Source: Halobacterium jilantaiense
GTDB lineage: Archaea; Halobacteriota; Halobacteria; Halobacteriales; Halobacteriaceae
Direction: 5' to 3'
Assembly (NCBI RefSeq): GCF_900110535.1
Contig: NZ_FOJA01000001.1
Coordinates: forward strand, 372,001-436,000
Length of the DNA stretch: 64,000 nt
Both the position numbers and the translations under genes were made by a program. The stretch's first letter is position 1; each line of letters opens with the position of its first letter. This document shows, in pieces, positions 1-60,992 of this stretch. Below the pieces are notes generated by a model, which was given only the letters and a program-made list of their open reading frames with translations, was not told the origin of the DNA and did not search any database.

Positions 1-190
1 TGGAGCGCCCGGCGACCCACATGCCCTCGGTGTCGGCGACCTTGAACACGTAGCCGATGACGAGGAAGATGCCGAGCATCCCCGAGACGAGAATGGCTGG
101 CAGCAGCTTGAACGAGACGTTCAGTCCTTCCGGGAGGATGCCGGCCTGCGCCGGAACAAGCCCGGCAGCCGCGGCGACGCCGGGGGTCAC
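1..190 (-). CDS. Sodium:solute symporter (acetate/solute permease type), N-terminal fragment
   Basis: Only the first ~63 codons are present; the gene continues past the left edge. Reading leftward from a GTG at 190, the protein has a short hydrophobic start, a transmembrane segment (LLPAILVSGMLGIFLVIGY) and then a VAGRS-like motif typical of the start of SSS-family permeases such as ActP. The GTG overlaps the TGA of the DUF4212 gene (GTGA), so the two are translationally coupled. DUF4212 proteins are the usual small partner of this subfamily, and two acetyl-CoA synthetase genes lie upstream, which makes acetate or another short organic acid the likely substrate (inference). Confidence 0.85.
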   Translation of the reverse strand, partial: MTPGVAAAAGLVPAQAGILPEGLNVSFKLLPAILVSGMLGIFLVIGYVFKVADTEGMWVAGRS

Positions 191-633
191 GCGCCGTCAC
201 CTCCGTGGGTGATGCCGTACTTCTCGTCGAGTTGGTCGCGCTTCCTGGCGTACCAGAACGCGAGAATCAGTGCGCCGCCCGGCGCGCCGATGGCGACCAG
301 GAAGTAGTGCAGCGGGAAGCCGATGACGGGCATCGTCGCCGTCATCGCGTCGGGCGCGAGCATCGTCGCCGTCACCGGGACGAAGACGACGACCGCCCAG
401 ATGGCGAACCCCGTCCAGATGATGCGGAGGTGGTCGCGCATGAACGGCGTGCTCGGGTTCAAGAGGTTCACTTCCGAGCTGAGGTAGTCGGTGTCGGCGT
501 GGGTCTGGCCGGCGCTCGCGACGCCGCCGTCAGACTTTAAGTCTGACGAGCCCCCGGTCGCTTCGCTCCCGGGGACGCCGTCGGCCGCAGCCGTCGGTTC
601 GTCCGTCGAATCGTGCGTGTCGTTGTCTGTCAT
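187..633 (-). CDS. DUF4212 domain protein, small subunit of sodium/solute symporter
   Basis: 148 aa. Residues ~60-148 are the DUF4212 core, with two transmembrane helices (IIWTGFAIWAVVVFVPV and FLVAIGAPGGALILAFWYA) and a charged C-terminus. Family knowledge: DUF4212 proteins pair with SSS permeases, and the permease gene follows directly with a GTGA overlap. The first ~55 residues are low-complexity, acidic and Ser/Gly-rich. They include GSSDLKSDGG, which is encoded by a perfect inverted repeat at 529-547, so part of the N-terminus looks like an in-frame insertion. Confidence 0.88.
   Translation of the reverse strand: MTDNDTHDSTDEPTAAADGVPGSEATGGSSDLKSDGGVASAGQTHADTDYLSSEVNLLNPSTPFMRDHLRIIWTGFAIWAVVVFVPVTATMLAPDAMTATMPVIGFPLHYFLVAIGAPGGALILAFWYARKRDQLDEKYGITHGGDGA
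529..547. repeat. Perfect inverted repeat inside the DUF4212 coding sequence
   Basis: GTCAGACTTTAAGTCTGAC has 9-bp arms around a central T, and the pairing extends by one more C-G pair on each side. Just downstream lies a second GC-rich imperfect hairpin (about 551-577, around TCGCTTCGCT). The repeat is translated in frame in the poorly conserved N-terminal region, as expected for a small palindromic mobile repeat tolerated in a linker (inference). Confidence 0.6.
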
Positions 634-19054: not shown

Positions 19055-20305
19055 CTAGGGGGTGACTGTGTACATGAGAGCACCACTGCCTTTGGTGCTT
19101 CGAGCGGTGAAGAAAATCTGGTCCGACCCGATCGCAAGTGGGGATGAAATCGACTTTCTCGGTGTTGTGACTGCTGTTGTCGTCCGGTCGGAACGCGACA
19201 CTTGGGAAATTTCCACCGCTGCACAAACCAGGACCGAATTTTCCGTGACAACTGGTTGTTTCGATGATCCAAATGCTTCCGCAGACCACCGCCGTTCGCC
19301 TGTCTGTAAATCCAGCACGTGCAGTCCGATGTTCGACACAGGGAGGAATACACGGCCAGCATCAGTATCAACCGCAGGAGGAGCATTAGCATCACCAGCA
19401 GGAGGAGCATTAGCATCACCAGCAGGAGGAGCACTAGCATCACTATCAGTCGAATACTGCCACTCCTGTTCTCCGGTCTCTATATCGAAGGCGTGCAGCA
19501 CGCCGGTCACAACGTCGGTATGGAGAACCAAGCCACTTGCTGCGACTGGTTGACTAACAGCTGACGTTGTGTTGTTTGTCCAGTCGATTTCACCTGAGCT
19601 GGTATCGATGGCAACCAAGCCAGATTCGTCGTTGGACGACCGGGCGGCAACCACTTTGCTTCCGAGGGTTGCTAGTCCGAAGACGACACCGAGCTCAGGA
19701 GACGACCACTGTTTATCACCCGTGTATGCGTCCAAGGCGACAAGATTCTGCCCTGACCCGGTACTGACGATGATACTGTCTTCAACTTTCAGGTGTGTCT
19801 TGTAAAACCCACTACCGCCGACTGACTGTTCCCAGTGGAGTTCACCCGAATTTACGTCCAGTGCAGCGGTCGTTCCGCTCCCAGAGAAGATGGCTGTCTG
19901 GCCATAGACAGATGGCGTCGTGTAGCTAACGTGGTCTGAATTCTGCCAGTTTTCGTCTCCTGTTTCGGGGTCGATCCCGAAGACCCCACCCGACCCGTCG
20001 CCATCGCTTGTTCGGGATATGAGGAGGTTCTGACCTGCGAGGATTGGTGCGTCAGTACGGTCGGCGTTTCCTGCGGTGCAGAGCTGTTGACTCTGGAAGT
20101 CTGTTTCAGGAAACTGTATGTCAGCGAATGCCGTATTTGCCGGGTTCTGGCTTAACATCGGCCAAACCGAGTCAGTAGTGCCAAATTCGGGTTCCGATAG
20201 CGTTGCTGTGTCTGTCTCGTTACCGAAACGAGCACAGCCTGCAAGGGTGGTTATCCCACCTGCGGCGACACCAAGCAGCTCTCTGCGTGATAGTTGGAGG
20301 GGCAT
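19055..20305 (-). CDS. PQQ-like beta-propeller Tat lipoprotein
   Basis: 416 aa. SRRELLGVAAGGITTLAGC is a Tat signal with a lipobox. The body has repeated propeller blades with the W-docking style motifs of PQQ-like/quinoprotein repeats (VFGIDPETGDENWQ, TAALDVNSGELHWEQS, LVALDAYTGDKQWSS, LVAIDTSSGEIDWTN, LHAFDIETGEQEWQY, LHVLDLQTGERRW). The usual role is binding or scaffolding outside the membrane; no catalytic residues are apparent. A 24-bp tandem repeat encodes APPAGDAN units near residue 287-310, inserted between blades. Confidence 0.85.
   Translation of the reverse strand: MPLQLSRRELLGVAAGGITTLAGCARFGNETDTATLSEPEFGTTDSVWPMLSQNPANTAFADIQFPETDFQSQQLCTAGNADRTDAPILAGQNLLISRTSDGDGSGGVFGIDPETGDENWQNSDHVSYTTPSVYGQTAIFSGSGTTAALDVNSGELHWEQSVGGSGFYKTHLKVEDSIIVSTGSGQNLVALDAYTGDKQWSSPELGVVFGLATLGSKVVAARSSNDESGLVAIDTSSGEIDWTNNTTSAVSQPVAASGLVLHTDVVTGVLHAFDIETGEQEWQYSTDSDASAPPAGDANAPPAGDANAPPAVDTDAGRVFLPVSNIGLHVLDLQTGERRWSAEAFGSSKQPVVTENSVLVCAAVEISQVSRSDRTTTAVTTPRKSISSPLAIGSDQIFFTARSTKGSGALMYTVTP
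19374..19445. repeat. 24-bp tandem repeat, three units, in frame
   Basis: Units at 19374-19397, 19398-19421 and 19422-19445. The first two are identical and the third has diverged by a few bases. Each adds eight residues (APPAGDAN type) to the propeller lipoprotein, so copy-number change would keep the frame. Confidence 0.85.
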
Positions 20306-25255: not shown

Positions 25256-26338
25256 TCAGCATCGGATTTCGAAGCGCGCACCGCCGTGTTCGGATTCGGT
25301 GACCGAGACCTGCCAGTCGTGCGCCTCGACGATGCGTTCGACAATTGCCAGGCCCAGCCCGGTTCCCTGTTCCGTTCGCGTGTACCCCGGTTCGAAGACC
25401 GTCTCCCGTTCGGACGGTGGAATCCCGTTGCCGTCGTCGGCGACGTAGACGCCGTTCTCGAGCGCGCCGACGGTCACCGTAATCGCCGCGCTCCCGTCGT
25501 CGGTCTGTCGCTCGCGGGCCCCGTCGCGGTGACCGTGTTCGACAGCGTCCTGCCGAGCCTGCGAGTCAGGACTCGTCGAGCCGTGCTCTACGGCGTCATC
25601 GGACTGCTCTGCAGTCCGATTGCGTGTCGAACCATGTTCGACAGCGTTCCGGAACAGGTTCTCGAACACTCGGCGGACGCGTCCCGGGTCGGCAGTCACT
25701 CGTGGGAGCGCGTCGGTGCTGTCGAGTTCGGCCGACTGCGTATCGACCGACTCCCACGCGTCGGCGACTGCTTCGGCCACGTCGACGTCCGGTTCCGGCT
25801 GCACGACCGCGTCCCCGCGTGCGAGCGTCAGAACATCCTGAATAAGTTGCTCCATTCGGTCGTGAGCCCGGGCCGCGGCGTCGAAGTGCTCGCTGTCTCC
25901 CGTCTCTTCGGCCGCTCGAAGCCGCGCCTTCGCCACGTCCAGCGGGTTCCGGAGGTCGTGCGTGAGTGCGCTCGCAACGGTCCCGATACCCACCGAATCA
26001 CCGCTTGCTCGCTCGCGTTCCACCGGTGAGAACACCAGAAACGGGCCGGATTGCTCGCCGACAGACCGCTGCAGGTGGTACGTCTGCGTCCCGTCCTGCG
26101 TGCTGAGCGTCGTCTCCACGCTGTCCCCGCGGACGACTCGGTCGACTGGGGGGCTGTCACTCGCGCTCAGTGTCGCAAGCAGGTCCTCAATCGGCGTTCC
26201 AGCCGCAGCGTCTCCGAACGCGTCCCCGAACGCGTCGTTGGTCGCTGTGACCGTCAGTCGGTCGTCTGCCTCGGTGTAGCGCACGACTGGCTGCGGAAGC
26301 GCGTCGATGGGAATCGAGACGCGCTCGTCGGCGGTCAT
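25256..26338 (-). CDS. Soluble PAS histidine kinase with repeat-expanded N-box
   Basis: 360 aa from ATG 26338 (MTADERVSIPIDALPQPVV). A PAS domain (~10-115), an H-box VASALTHDLRNPLDVAKARLR (phospho-His ~141), and a HATPase domain with N-box LFRNAVEHGS, G1 VADDGNGIP and G2 GTGLGLAIVERIV. No membrane segment. Inside the N-box the sequence AVEHGS recurs three times with ~16-17 residue spacing, an in-frame expansion (DNA repeat at 25531-25652). It precedes the HTH_10 gene on the same strand; a two-component pair with the HalX regulator is possible. Confidence 0.9.
   Translation of the reverse strand: MTADERVSIPIDALPQPVVRYTEADDRLTVTATNDAFGDAFGDAAAGTPIEDLLATLSASDSPPVDRVVRGDSVETTLSTQDGTQTYHLQRSVGEQSGPFLVFSPVERERASGDSVGIGTVASALTHDLRNPLDVAKARLRAAEETGDSEHFDAAARAHDRMEQLIQDVLTLARGDAVVQPEPDVDVAEAVADAWESVDTQSAELDSTDALPRVTADPGRVRRVFENLFRNAVEHGSTRNRTAEQSDDAVEHGSTSPDSQARQDAVEHGHRDGARERQTDDGSAAITVTVGALENGVYVADDGNGIPPSERETVFEPGYTRTEQGTGLGLAIVERIVEAHDWQVSVTESEHGGARFEIRC
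25531..25652. repeat. Degenerate ~50-bp tandem repeat in the kinase N-box
   Basis: Three imperfect units on the plus strand, with cores ACCGTGTTCGACAGCGTCC (25532), CCGTGCTCTACGGCGTCAT (25581) and ACCATGTTCGACAGCGTTCC (25631). They encode (N/D)AVEHGS plus Ser/Asn/Gln/Asp-rich spacers. Confidence 0.75.
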
Positions 26339-26559
26339 CACGCAGTCCCTCCCTCGGTATCGACCGCCGCCGTCCGCTGCGGCACGAGAGCGCCACTCGG
26401 CATACGTCAGCGTTGAACGGGGAGCCTCATTTAACGTTACTCCATGATTCCGAGTCTGCAACAGCCCCGGAAACGAACCGCGACGACACCAGACCGGGGT
26501 GGAAACGCGTCTCTGTCTCTCCTACGTTCGCGGAGAGCAGAGCCTCGACGGCCGACAGG

Positions 26560-59522: not shown

Positions 59523-60992
59523 ATGACGATTATCGACCTCACCCCGACTGTGGCTGTCTTCCTGCAGTTCGGGGCACTGGCCGTCGGGATGGCCAGTTGG
59601 CTCGACGACGAGGGGTCAGGGGACTCCGGCGGTGGCGGTGAGGGCGACGACTTCGACGTTGACGACGACTTCGACGACGACTTCGACGACGACTTCGGGT
59701 CGTTCGACGACATGGACAGCGGCGGTGGTGGCGATGGTGCGGGTGCCGCGGATTCGTCTGTCAACGAGCTCGAGAACCGCATCGAGGAACTCGAAACCGA
59801 AGTCTCGAACGTCGCGTCGAAGGCCAACACCGTCCGGAGCGAGAACGAACAGATAAGCGAGAGCGTCGAGGACGTCGAGGAGAACGTCCGAAAGCTTCTG
59901 GAGATCTACGAGATGGTCACGCGCGGCGTGAACCCGTTCGTCGACGACGTCGACCCGAACGCGGCTGGGGGCGGTCCGGGCGCGGGAGACCAGAGCTTCG
60001 GGCTGTTCGACGAGGACGAGGACGACGGAGCTGCCGACGACGACCTCGACTCCGATGTCGCGGACGCGGAGGCCGAGGAGTTCTTCGAGGACGACGCCTT
60101 CGACGACGACTTCGAGGAAGAGGAAGGCGACGACATGGGTGGCTTCGACGACGACTTCGAGGAGGACGCAGACGACGGGATGATGGACGACGATATGGGC
60201 GGTTTCGACGATGACTTCGAGGAGGGCGACGACATGATGGACGACGACATGGGCGGTTTCGACGATGACTTCGAGGAGTCGGAGGAAGACGAAGACGAGA
60301 TGATGGGCGACGACCTCGGGGACGAGGGCGAAGAGGCCGCCGGAGACGGTGGCGGAACGTCCTTCGAGGAGCTCAAAGAGGAGTACGAGTCCGGGGACGC
60401 TGACTGGGCCGAGGGCGAAGCGCCGGAGGACGAGGGCATCGAGGCCGAGAACAAGCCCGATATCGGGTTCGACGACTCGGACTTGGAGGCCGACGCCGAG
60501 GACGACGCTGAGCCAACTGACCTCGAGCCCGAACCAGAGCCGGAACCTGAGCCTGAGCCAGAGCCGGAACCTGAGCCCGAACCGTCTATCGACGAGGCGG
60601 CGGGCGCAGCGCCCGGCCCGGGGCTGGCACTCGGTGGCGACGACGGCCCGCACCTGGCGGAGCCGCCGAAGGGATACCTCTCGGACGTGATTTGTCTGGA
60701 GTGGCTCGACTACTTGCTGACCGAGTTCGGGCCGAAGAACACCGTCCGCACCATCAACTACTACGAGCGCATCGGCTGGATCGGAGAGCCAGTTCGCGAT
60801 CAGCTCTTTGACTTCCTGGAGGGGCTCACCGACTCGGACTACCTCTACCGAGAGGAGTTCGGGAGCACCGAGTTGACGATGGACGACCACCTGAAGAGCC
60901 TCGACTACATCGAGGAGCTGACCAGCGAAGACATCGAGCGGGTCATAGTCGACCGGTGCGAGGACCTCCACAGGAATGGGATTCAGCGTTAG
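59523..60992 (+). CDS. arlCE: ArlCE (FlaCE) fused archaellum cytoplasmic protein
   Basis: 489 aa from ATG 59523. N-terminal hydrophobic helix (LTPTVAVFLQFGALAVGM), an acidic coil, the FlaC/D coiled-coil (NELENRIEELETEVSNVASK), then repeated GGFDDDFEE blocks (~four to five), an (EP)n run, and a C-terminal FlaE domain (GYLSDVICLEWLDYLLTEFGP). Cytosolic ring/switch component. The length is inflated by low-complexity Asp/Glu expansions between FlaC and FlaE parts. Confidence 0.93.
   Translation: MTIIDLTPTVAVFLQFGALAVGMASWLDDEGSGDSGGGGEGDDFDVDDDFDDDFDDDFGSFDDMDSGGGGDGAGAADSSVNELENRIEELETEVSNVASKANTVRSENEQISESVEDVEENVRKLLEIYEMVTRGVNPFVDDVDPNAAGGGPGAGDQSFGLFDEDEDDGAADDDLDSDVADAEAEEFFEDDAFDDDFEEEEGDDMGGFDDDFEEDADDGMMDDDMGGFDDDFEEGDDMMDDDMGGFDDDFEESEEDEDEMMGDDLGDEGEEAAGDGGGTSFEELKEEYESGDADWAEGEAPEDEGIEAENKPDIGFDDSDLEADAEDDAEPTDLEPEPEPEPEPEPEPEPEPEPSIDEAAGAAPGPGLALGGDDGPHLAEPPKGYLSDVICLEWLDYLLTEFGPKNTVRTINYYERIGWIGEPVRDQLFDFLEGLTDSDYLYREEFGSTELTMDDHLKSLDYIEELTSEDIERVIVDRCEDLHRNGIQR
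60130..60290. repeat. Tandem repeat encoding acidic GGFDDDFEE blocks in ArlCE
   Basis: Repeated GACGACATGGGCGG followed by TTTCGACGATGACTTCGAGG units in frame, with small spacers. A second low-complexity stretch at 60525-60590 encodes alternating Glu-Pro. Confidence 0.8.

Follow-up and report, generated by a model that had tools for sequence, protein, structure and literature searches.

The in-frame repeats in a histidine kinase gene of Halobacterium jilantaiense are probably (about 0.85, judged from sequence) insertions of a small haloarchaeal mobile DNA element that has no transposase of its own. Behind this reading stand a two-hairpin structure with covariation, many genic and intergenic sites, orthologs with and without the element, one insertion of exactly 99 nt, and the presence of the element in both orientations relative to genes. 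The gene lies in the window, that is, the whole stretch of 64,000 nt that was analysed.

The kinase gene and its repeat array

The protein of the host open reading frame (ORF) gave both HisKA and HATPase_c in a domain search, and its translation around the N-box is ..FENLFRNAVEHGSTRNRTAEQSDDAVEHGSTSPDSQARQDAVEHGHRDGARERQTDDGSAAITVTVG... The repeat region (25526-25648, minus strand) reads in frame as NAVEHGST-RNRTAEQSD (9 aa)-DAVEHGST-SPDSQARQ (8 aa)-DAVEHGHRDG; the motif copies start at 25648, 25597 and 25549, so that the units measure 51 and 48 nt. In-frame copies of the N-box motif had been claimed in a sequence-only reading of this DNA, and they are indeed present on the minus strand. The span that it gave (25531-25652) is correct within a few bases, and its three copies stand, except that the third, listed as AVEHGS, is AVEHG-H. 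The features are as follows.

25256..26461, minus strand: histidine kinase host gene (HisKA + HATPase_c); ORF start TTG at 26461, with the ATG at 26338 as the likelier start
25598..25648, minus strand: unit 1, 51 nt, type B, NAVEHGSTRNRTAEQSD; its opening codons probably serve as the N-box
25625..25643, minus strand: hairpin 1 of unit 1, TGTCGAAC-ATG-GTTCGACA
25598..25620, minus strand: hairpin 2 of unit 1, ATCGGACTG-CAGAG-CAGTCCGAT
25550..25597, minus strand: unit 2, 48 nt, type A, DAVEHGSTSPDSQARQ; matches models R1 and R2 (see below)
25574..25592, minus strand: hairpin 1 of unit 2, CGTAGAGC-ACG-GCTCGACG, with one mismatch, GTA/TCG
25547..25572, minus strand: hairpin 2 of unit 2, stem GTCCTG..CAGGAC, with one inner mismatch
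25533..25549, minus strand: the repeated segment for the third time, GACGCTGTCGAACACGG (DAVEHG); the native reading picks up again here

Each kinase unit, 48 or 51 bp in length, consists of two DNA hairpins, with hairpin 1 encoding VEHGST. The repeats are unlike one another, with 12, 16 and 14 of the 18 leading bases common to the pairs, and the array was absent from the output of Tandem Repeats Finder at a score of at least 40. The same program listed two other tandem repeats in the window, at 60128-60309 (54-bp period) and 19358-19443 (24-bp period). Folded as DNA, the coding strand of the array reached -40.3 kcal/mol, compared with -29.2 +/- 3.2 kcal/mol for 200 dinucleotide shuffles (z -3.46). 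When the protein was held constant, this fold energy was reached by 8 of 1000 codon-usage resamplings and by none of 1000 permutations of the array's own codons.

We then consider the kinase itself. Six residues (N110, D180, G182, G184, G206, and G208), among them the Asn of the N-box and the G1- and G2-box glycines, were invariant in an alignment of 48 kinases. In the AlphaFold2 model of the window kinase (pLDDT 84, pTM 0.75), the N-box helix spans residues 97-115 and contains N110..H114, which belong to the first copy; the next strand spans 166-172, and residues 116-165 carry no secondary structure, with pLDDT dropping to <55 (mean 46-53 in the blocks of 121-160). With the N-box Asn kept in the helix and the G1 and G2 glycines kept, the host appears, by sequence and predicted structure, to be a HisKA/HATPase_c kinase. 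Hence the model agrees with the earlier suggestion that the first copy could serve as the N-box: that copy most probably does the work, and the remaining copies would form an exposed loop. An effect of the insert on kinase activity, also proposed there, is not borne out, as the model gives a simple exposed loop, the outcome named beforehand as counting against it. The copy number does differ between kinases, with 1 to 5 VE[HRQ] motifs between the N-box and the G1 box in the 59 kinases surveyed. The Asn codon is retained in the first copy and GAC is found nearly always in the later ones, a pattern that fits a junction immediately behind AACG.

Covariation in the hairpin arms

Among 36 aligned units, 89.6% of the cells were paired, and 62 paired cells had changed on both sides versus 5 on one side; none of 500 shuffles was as high, and slid structures were 27-40% paired. 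About one tenth of the pairs are broken in alignment A1, and unit 2 of the window is mismatched in both hairpins. The rows of another alignment, A4, were chosen for their hairpins (98% paired, with 105 two-sided and 9 one-sided cells) and are not counted as pairing evidence. Covariance model R1, built from 36 type-A units, and similar searches favour pairing, so a separate pattern was used that allows all 16 wobble combinations equally. In this pattern-neutral set, which includes a few chance bacterial matches, 118 of the 153 matches were self-complementary versus 41.8 expected from column composition, and the odds ratios were 25 and 21 at the paired wobble sites versus about 4-5 at the unpaired controls. 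Hairpin 2 was perfectly complementary in 96 of 153 units (11.3 expected), and its changes alter amino acids. Similarly, in loci chosen by protein similarity alone, V3-S3 was complementary in 22/28 (13.0 expected) and E3-G3 in 26/28 (14.2 expected).

Across all loci, most of which were gathered with pairing-biased DNA patterns or covariance models, the Val codon was accompanied by the pairing-restoring Ser codon in 363 of 415 cases versus 183 expected (GTC-TCG 169, GTG-TCC 174, GTA-TCT 10, and GTT-TCA 10), and an AGY serine codon was never found at the hairpin 1 Ser in these 415 loci. The covariation counts are not independent, owing to shared descent and gene conversion, and the neutral tests draw on 153 and 28 cases. 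Covariation of synonymous codons for a reason at the DNA level, as in these units, is rare. In addition, neighbouring units in arrays such as L035, L041, and L047 often carry different synonymous hairpin 1 alleles, a diversity that would reduce deletions between direct repeats of identical sequence.

A further explanation is that selection on the peptide alone, for an acidic, salt-adapted flexible linker, accounts for the recurrence. Haloarchaeal proteins tend to be rich in Asp, Ser, and Gln, and the inserts are likewise. The synonymous covariation and the intergenic and antisense copies speak against this idea, which we give next to no chance; as the sole cause, it is refuted by the synonymous-site result. 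Alternatively, the hairpins might act in mRNA, for instance in translation or decay, as would suit their stable folds and the location of some copies in transcribed regions. The coding-strand mismatches, however, are A.C in 52 cases versus G.T in 17, which is the reverse of what mRNA folding favours and argues against an mRNA structure. Moreover, 13 of 18 coding copies are antisense, and an Rfam search of six loci at E <= 1 returned two tRNAs and three weak, unrelated models, with no family matching the element. An RNA element is therefore very unlikely, and mRNA structure was rejected as the main reason for the hairpins.

Distribution of the element and its insertion sites

The VEHGSTS pattern occurred at 32 places in 19 of 292 genomes of the class, with 0 in the control. 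Model R1 at E <= 0.01 matched 295 of 391 genomes of the class, representing 70 of 86 genera. When 246 genomes drawn from the phylum were searched with a model at E <= 1e-4, 23 gave matches, all of them in the window's order, with kinship on record for few of the other 223. The named records with clear elements were haloarchaea, while the few bacterial records were chance pattern matches. The element was also found on plasmids of Haloarcula, Natrinema, and others (13 records); viral contigs and phage records gave no match when scanned, which leaves virus-borne copies unsupported.

R1 proved too narrow, and its weaker matches, which showed that the hairpin 1 sequence is free in other members, led to model R2. 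The consensus of the wider family is RACRCCG-[H1]-CGAGCC-[CTNNN-TCGCT.CGCTC-NNNAG]-GGACR, and the N-box units are one branch of it. Elements whose hairpin 1 is free share conserved CGAGCC and TC/TC positions, which are unpaired. A strict two-hairpin scan of 2.0 Mb of loci, enriched by the earlier searches, found 158 elements (127 of the VEHGST type and 31 others) and none in the reversed control. At E <= 0.001, R2 matched 31 of 35 relatives, with 11 places in the window's own genome; one genome (G396) had 75 matches, the next highest of the other 34 having 29. In the window, R2 matched at E < 1e-10 in two places, unit 2 of the kinase and 524-579 (+), both of which are among the 25 rows from which R2 was built or close to them.

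524..579, plus strand: second element of the superfamily, near-perfect, with a free hairpin 1, CGTCAGACT-TTA-AGTCTGACG; R2 E-value 2e-15 (the R2 alignment includes this element)

This second element lies in antisense orientation within the N-terminal part of a DUF4212 protein (ORF 187..633, minus strand), where it is read as DGVPGSEATGGSSDLKSDGG, and it fails the strict scan as its left junction is shifted by two bases. Fifty places in the window's genus, taken by rank from the R1 and R2 hit lists rather than at random and with genes from a codon-score caller rather than annotation, comprised 32 intergenic, 13 antisense, and 5 sense copies (one of the latter in an N-box). The element length in R2 coordinates was divisible by three in 16 of 17 coding copies versus 19 of 31 intergenic ones (p 0.018).

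Several individual copies are also worth recording. An intergenic subfamily (L445, L446, L450, L495-L497, L500, L515, and L516) has flanks TACRCC..GGACGCYAAAA and a hairpin 1 of the GGGAGAGC/GCTCTCCC kind, and is possibly placed at gene ends. At another intergenic locus (L451, 807-864), the element directly adjoins the 5' end of a tRNA gene and is flanked on either side by ACACCGGC. Elements also lie in an MBL-fold hydrolase annotated in Haloarcula hispanica (L464/L535), antisense in a P-type ATPase of Natrinema versiforme (L536), in a gene that we take from its motifs to be Kae1-like (L460), and antisense in a presumably ThDP-enzyme-like gene, likewise named from motifs (L456).

The loci formed 222 distinct clusters, comprising 191 automatically recognized kinases and 31 others. 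Sorted by reading, the latter contained 10 kinases, 12 chance or unrelated cases, and 9 element-bearing clusters outside the N-box, at 8 distinct sites. One sense-element copy lies apparently between genes; the following carry a sense element in frame.

CbiE-like methylase (PF00590)
VLRF1-like release factor (PF18859)
Rieske protein (PF00355)
Ornithine cyclodeaminase, OCD (PF02423)
Cgi121 protein (PF08617)
REC-PAS linker of a kinase (PF00072)
Unassigned Natrinema protein, with a weak PF13565 match

A REC-PAS kinase on a metagenome contig (L109, reverse-strand offset 5855) is thrown out of frame by a unit whose hairpin-2 loop is shortened; this may be an error or a pseudogene. Empty sites were found in orthologs for six of the sites, namely OCD, Cgi121, VLRF1-like, CbiE, Rieske, and L077. 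OCD is the clearest case: the site is empty in genome G407 and filled in G309 by exactly 99 nt, made up of a C and an A unit, and the flanks of the two are 96.4% (715 nt upstream) and 96.7% (120 nt downstream) identical. At one Rieske site, sister species differ, having B, B+C, A+B, a unit that is shortened or has decayed, or none. GACG marks the junction in 6/6 empty sites read, and the right end of the filled sites is GGAC or GGAT in 5/6, the Rieske B unit having CGAC.

These sites bear on the origin by replication slippage that the sequence-only reading had proposed, namely that a local in-frame tandem repeat tunes kinase activity by changing its copy number. Its units are in tandem and in frame, kinases differ in having 1 to 5 motifs, and one genome (G093) shows five successive 48-nt model matches, four of them with equal score. 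Nevertheless, the two units of the window are of different types (B and A) and fold as hairpins with covarying arms; the same architecture recurs intergenically and in unrelated genes whose orthologs include empty sites; G023, the closest ortholog at 60% identity, has the same number, order, and types of units; and the insert is modelled as a disordered loop, which does not favour tuning. On this evidence, slippage is highly improbable, and a slippage repeat was rejected.

Possible mechanism and relation to known systems

As a mobile element, the unit would be CCG-[hairpin 1]-CGAGCC-[hairpin 2]-GGACR and would insert 3' of a short RACG motif. Its right end would re-create this RACG target, so that further copies could be added in tandem. 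Kinases may tolerate the copies because their length is a multiple of three, because the loop after the N-box accepts changes in length, and because hairpin 1 encodes VEHG, such that an insertion between AACG and CCGTCGAGCAC would rebuild NAVEHG exactly. The least certain step is why the hairpins are kept: a trans-acting transposase of single-stranded hairpins (IS200/IS605- or RAYT-like) might need them, or else template switching that they prompt. We rated the two candidate agents, an HUH-type transposase in trans and template switching at short homologies, about equal.

The former would give a single-strand-hairpin mobile element in whose kinase branch the hairpin mimics the host N-box codons, so that insertion splits and then rebuilds the ATP-binding motif and the element spreads through paralogous kinases at little cost. 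Target mimicry in an active site would then be its strategy, and the hairpin would be retained via matched synonymous codon changes. We put forward this fuller scenario tentatively, at somewhat short of even odds. The array is stable in the closest ortholog of the window kinase, which counts against mobility.

The latter would do without a transposase: template switching and ectopic gene conversion at homology or microhomology between N-boxes and arrays would have spread the units, and quasipalindrome correction rather than selection would keep the arms complementary. Kinase N-boxes and the end of the element share RACGCCGTCGARCAC, the direct repeats at the flanks measure between 4 and about 15 bp, both flanks in G017 are GACGCCCTCGAACGC, and the flanks are mosaic, with N first and D last. 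At the Rieske site of L390, the upstream flank looks target-derived, which fits homology-driven exchange as well as transposition. However, the homology at OCD and Cgi121 is only about 4-5 bp, the conserved unpaired CGAGCC and TC/TC positions suggest recognition, and many intergenic copies have unrelated flanks. This route is possible, though we would not wager on it at evens.

If this reading is right, the element would be a widespread archaeal addition to the small number of selfish DNAs known from inside protein-coding genes. As it is common (70/86 genera sampled at E <= 0.01) and young, judging from the species pairs with filled and empty sites, its mobility could be tested in transformable haloarchaea. 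Furthermore, these inserts go unlabelled where haloarchaeal kinases and conserved proteins (Cgi121, Kae1-like, and CbiE) are aligned and annotated.

A search of the openly accessible literature yielded no description of the element. Mitochondrial genomes contain mobile double-hairpin elements made of two adjacent hairpins, which differ from the haloarchaeal one in being organellar and of other sequence. A classical MITE was rejected, as the ends are direct (RACG...GGACR) rather than inverted, with neither TIR nor a fixed target duplication. Among haloarchaea, the PATEs and SMRs of Haloquadratum walsbyi are described as transposase-free, the PATEs having palindromes near their ends, no target duplication, and lengths down to 52 bp (PMC3119063). 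The present element may have hairpins near its ends, a short fixed target motif that is re-created at the right end, and no duplication of fixed length, with GACG in 6/6 empty sites, and its flanking repeats also allow homology-driven exchange; the passages on PATEs and SMRs mention neither in-frame coding copies nor N-box targeting, which sets the two apart by description.

REP elements and REPtrons involve small tetranucleotide-tagged hairpins thought to be mobilised in trans by HUH tyrosine transposases (RAYT) (PMC3733652). As described in that article, in which no word begins with 'Halo', they differ from the haloarchaeal element in tag and hairpins and are mainly extragenic. PARCELs are tandem palindromic coding repeats, also thought to be mobile, of which none was reported from archaeal genomes in the relevant passages; in contrast to the haloarchaeal units, their repeat is 25-residue and amphipathic, and many lie in membrane proteins (PMC2996958).

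The closest likeness in description is to Rickettsia palindromic elements (RPEs) and the coding palindromes of Wolbachia and Methanocaldococcus jannaschii, which are reported as short palindromic in-frame repeats in unrelated protein genes, usually in unstructured segments (PMC2996958, PMC10969869). The haloarchaeal element is likewise short, palindromic, repeated, and in frame in several unrelated genes while absent in their orthologs, the features by which the Rickettsia type is recognised. RPEs are given as about 150 bp (PMC10969869), whereas the haloarchaeal element has 45-57 bp, two hairpins, fixed CGAGCC and RACG junctions, and tandem arrays, and one of its branches is concentrated in a single active-site motif.
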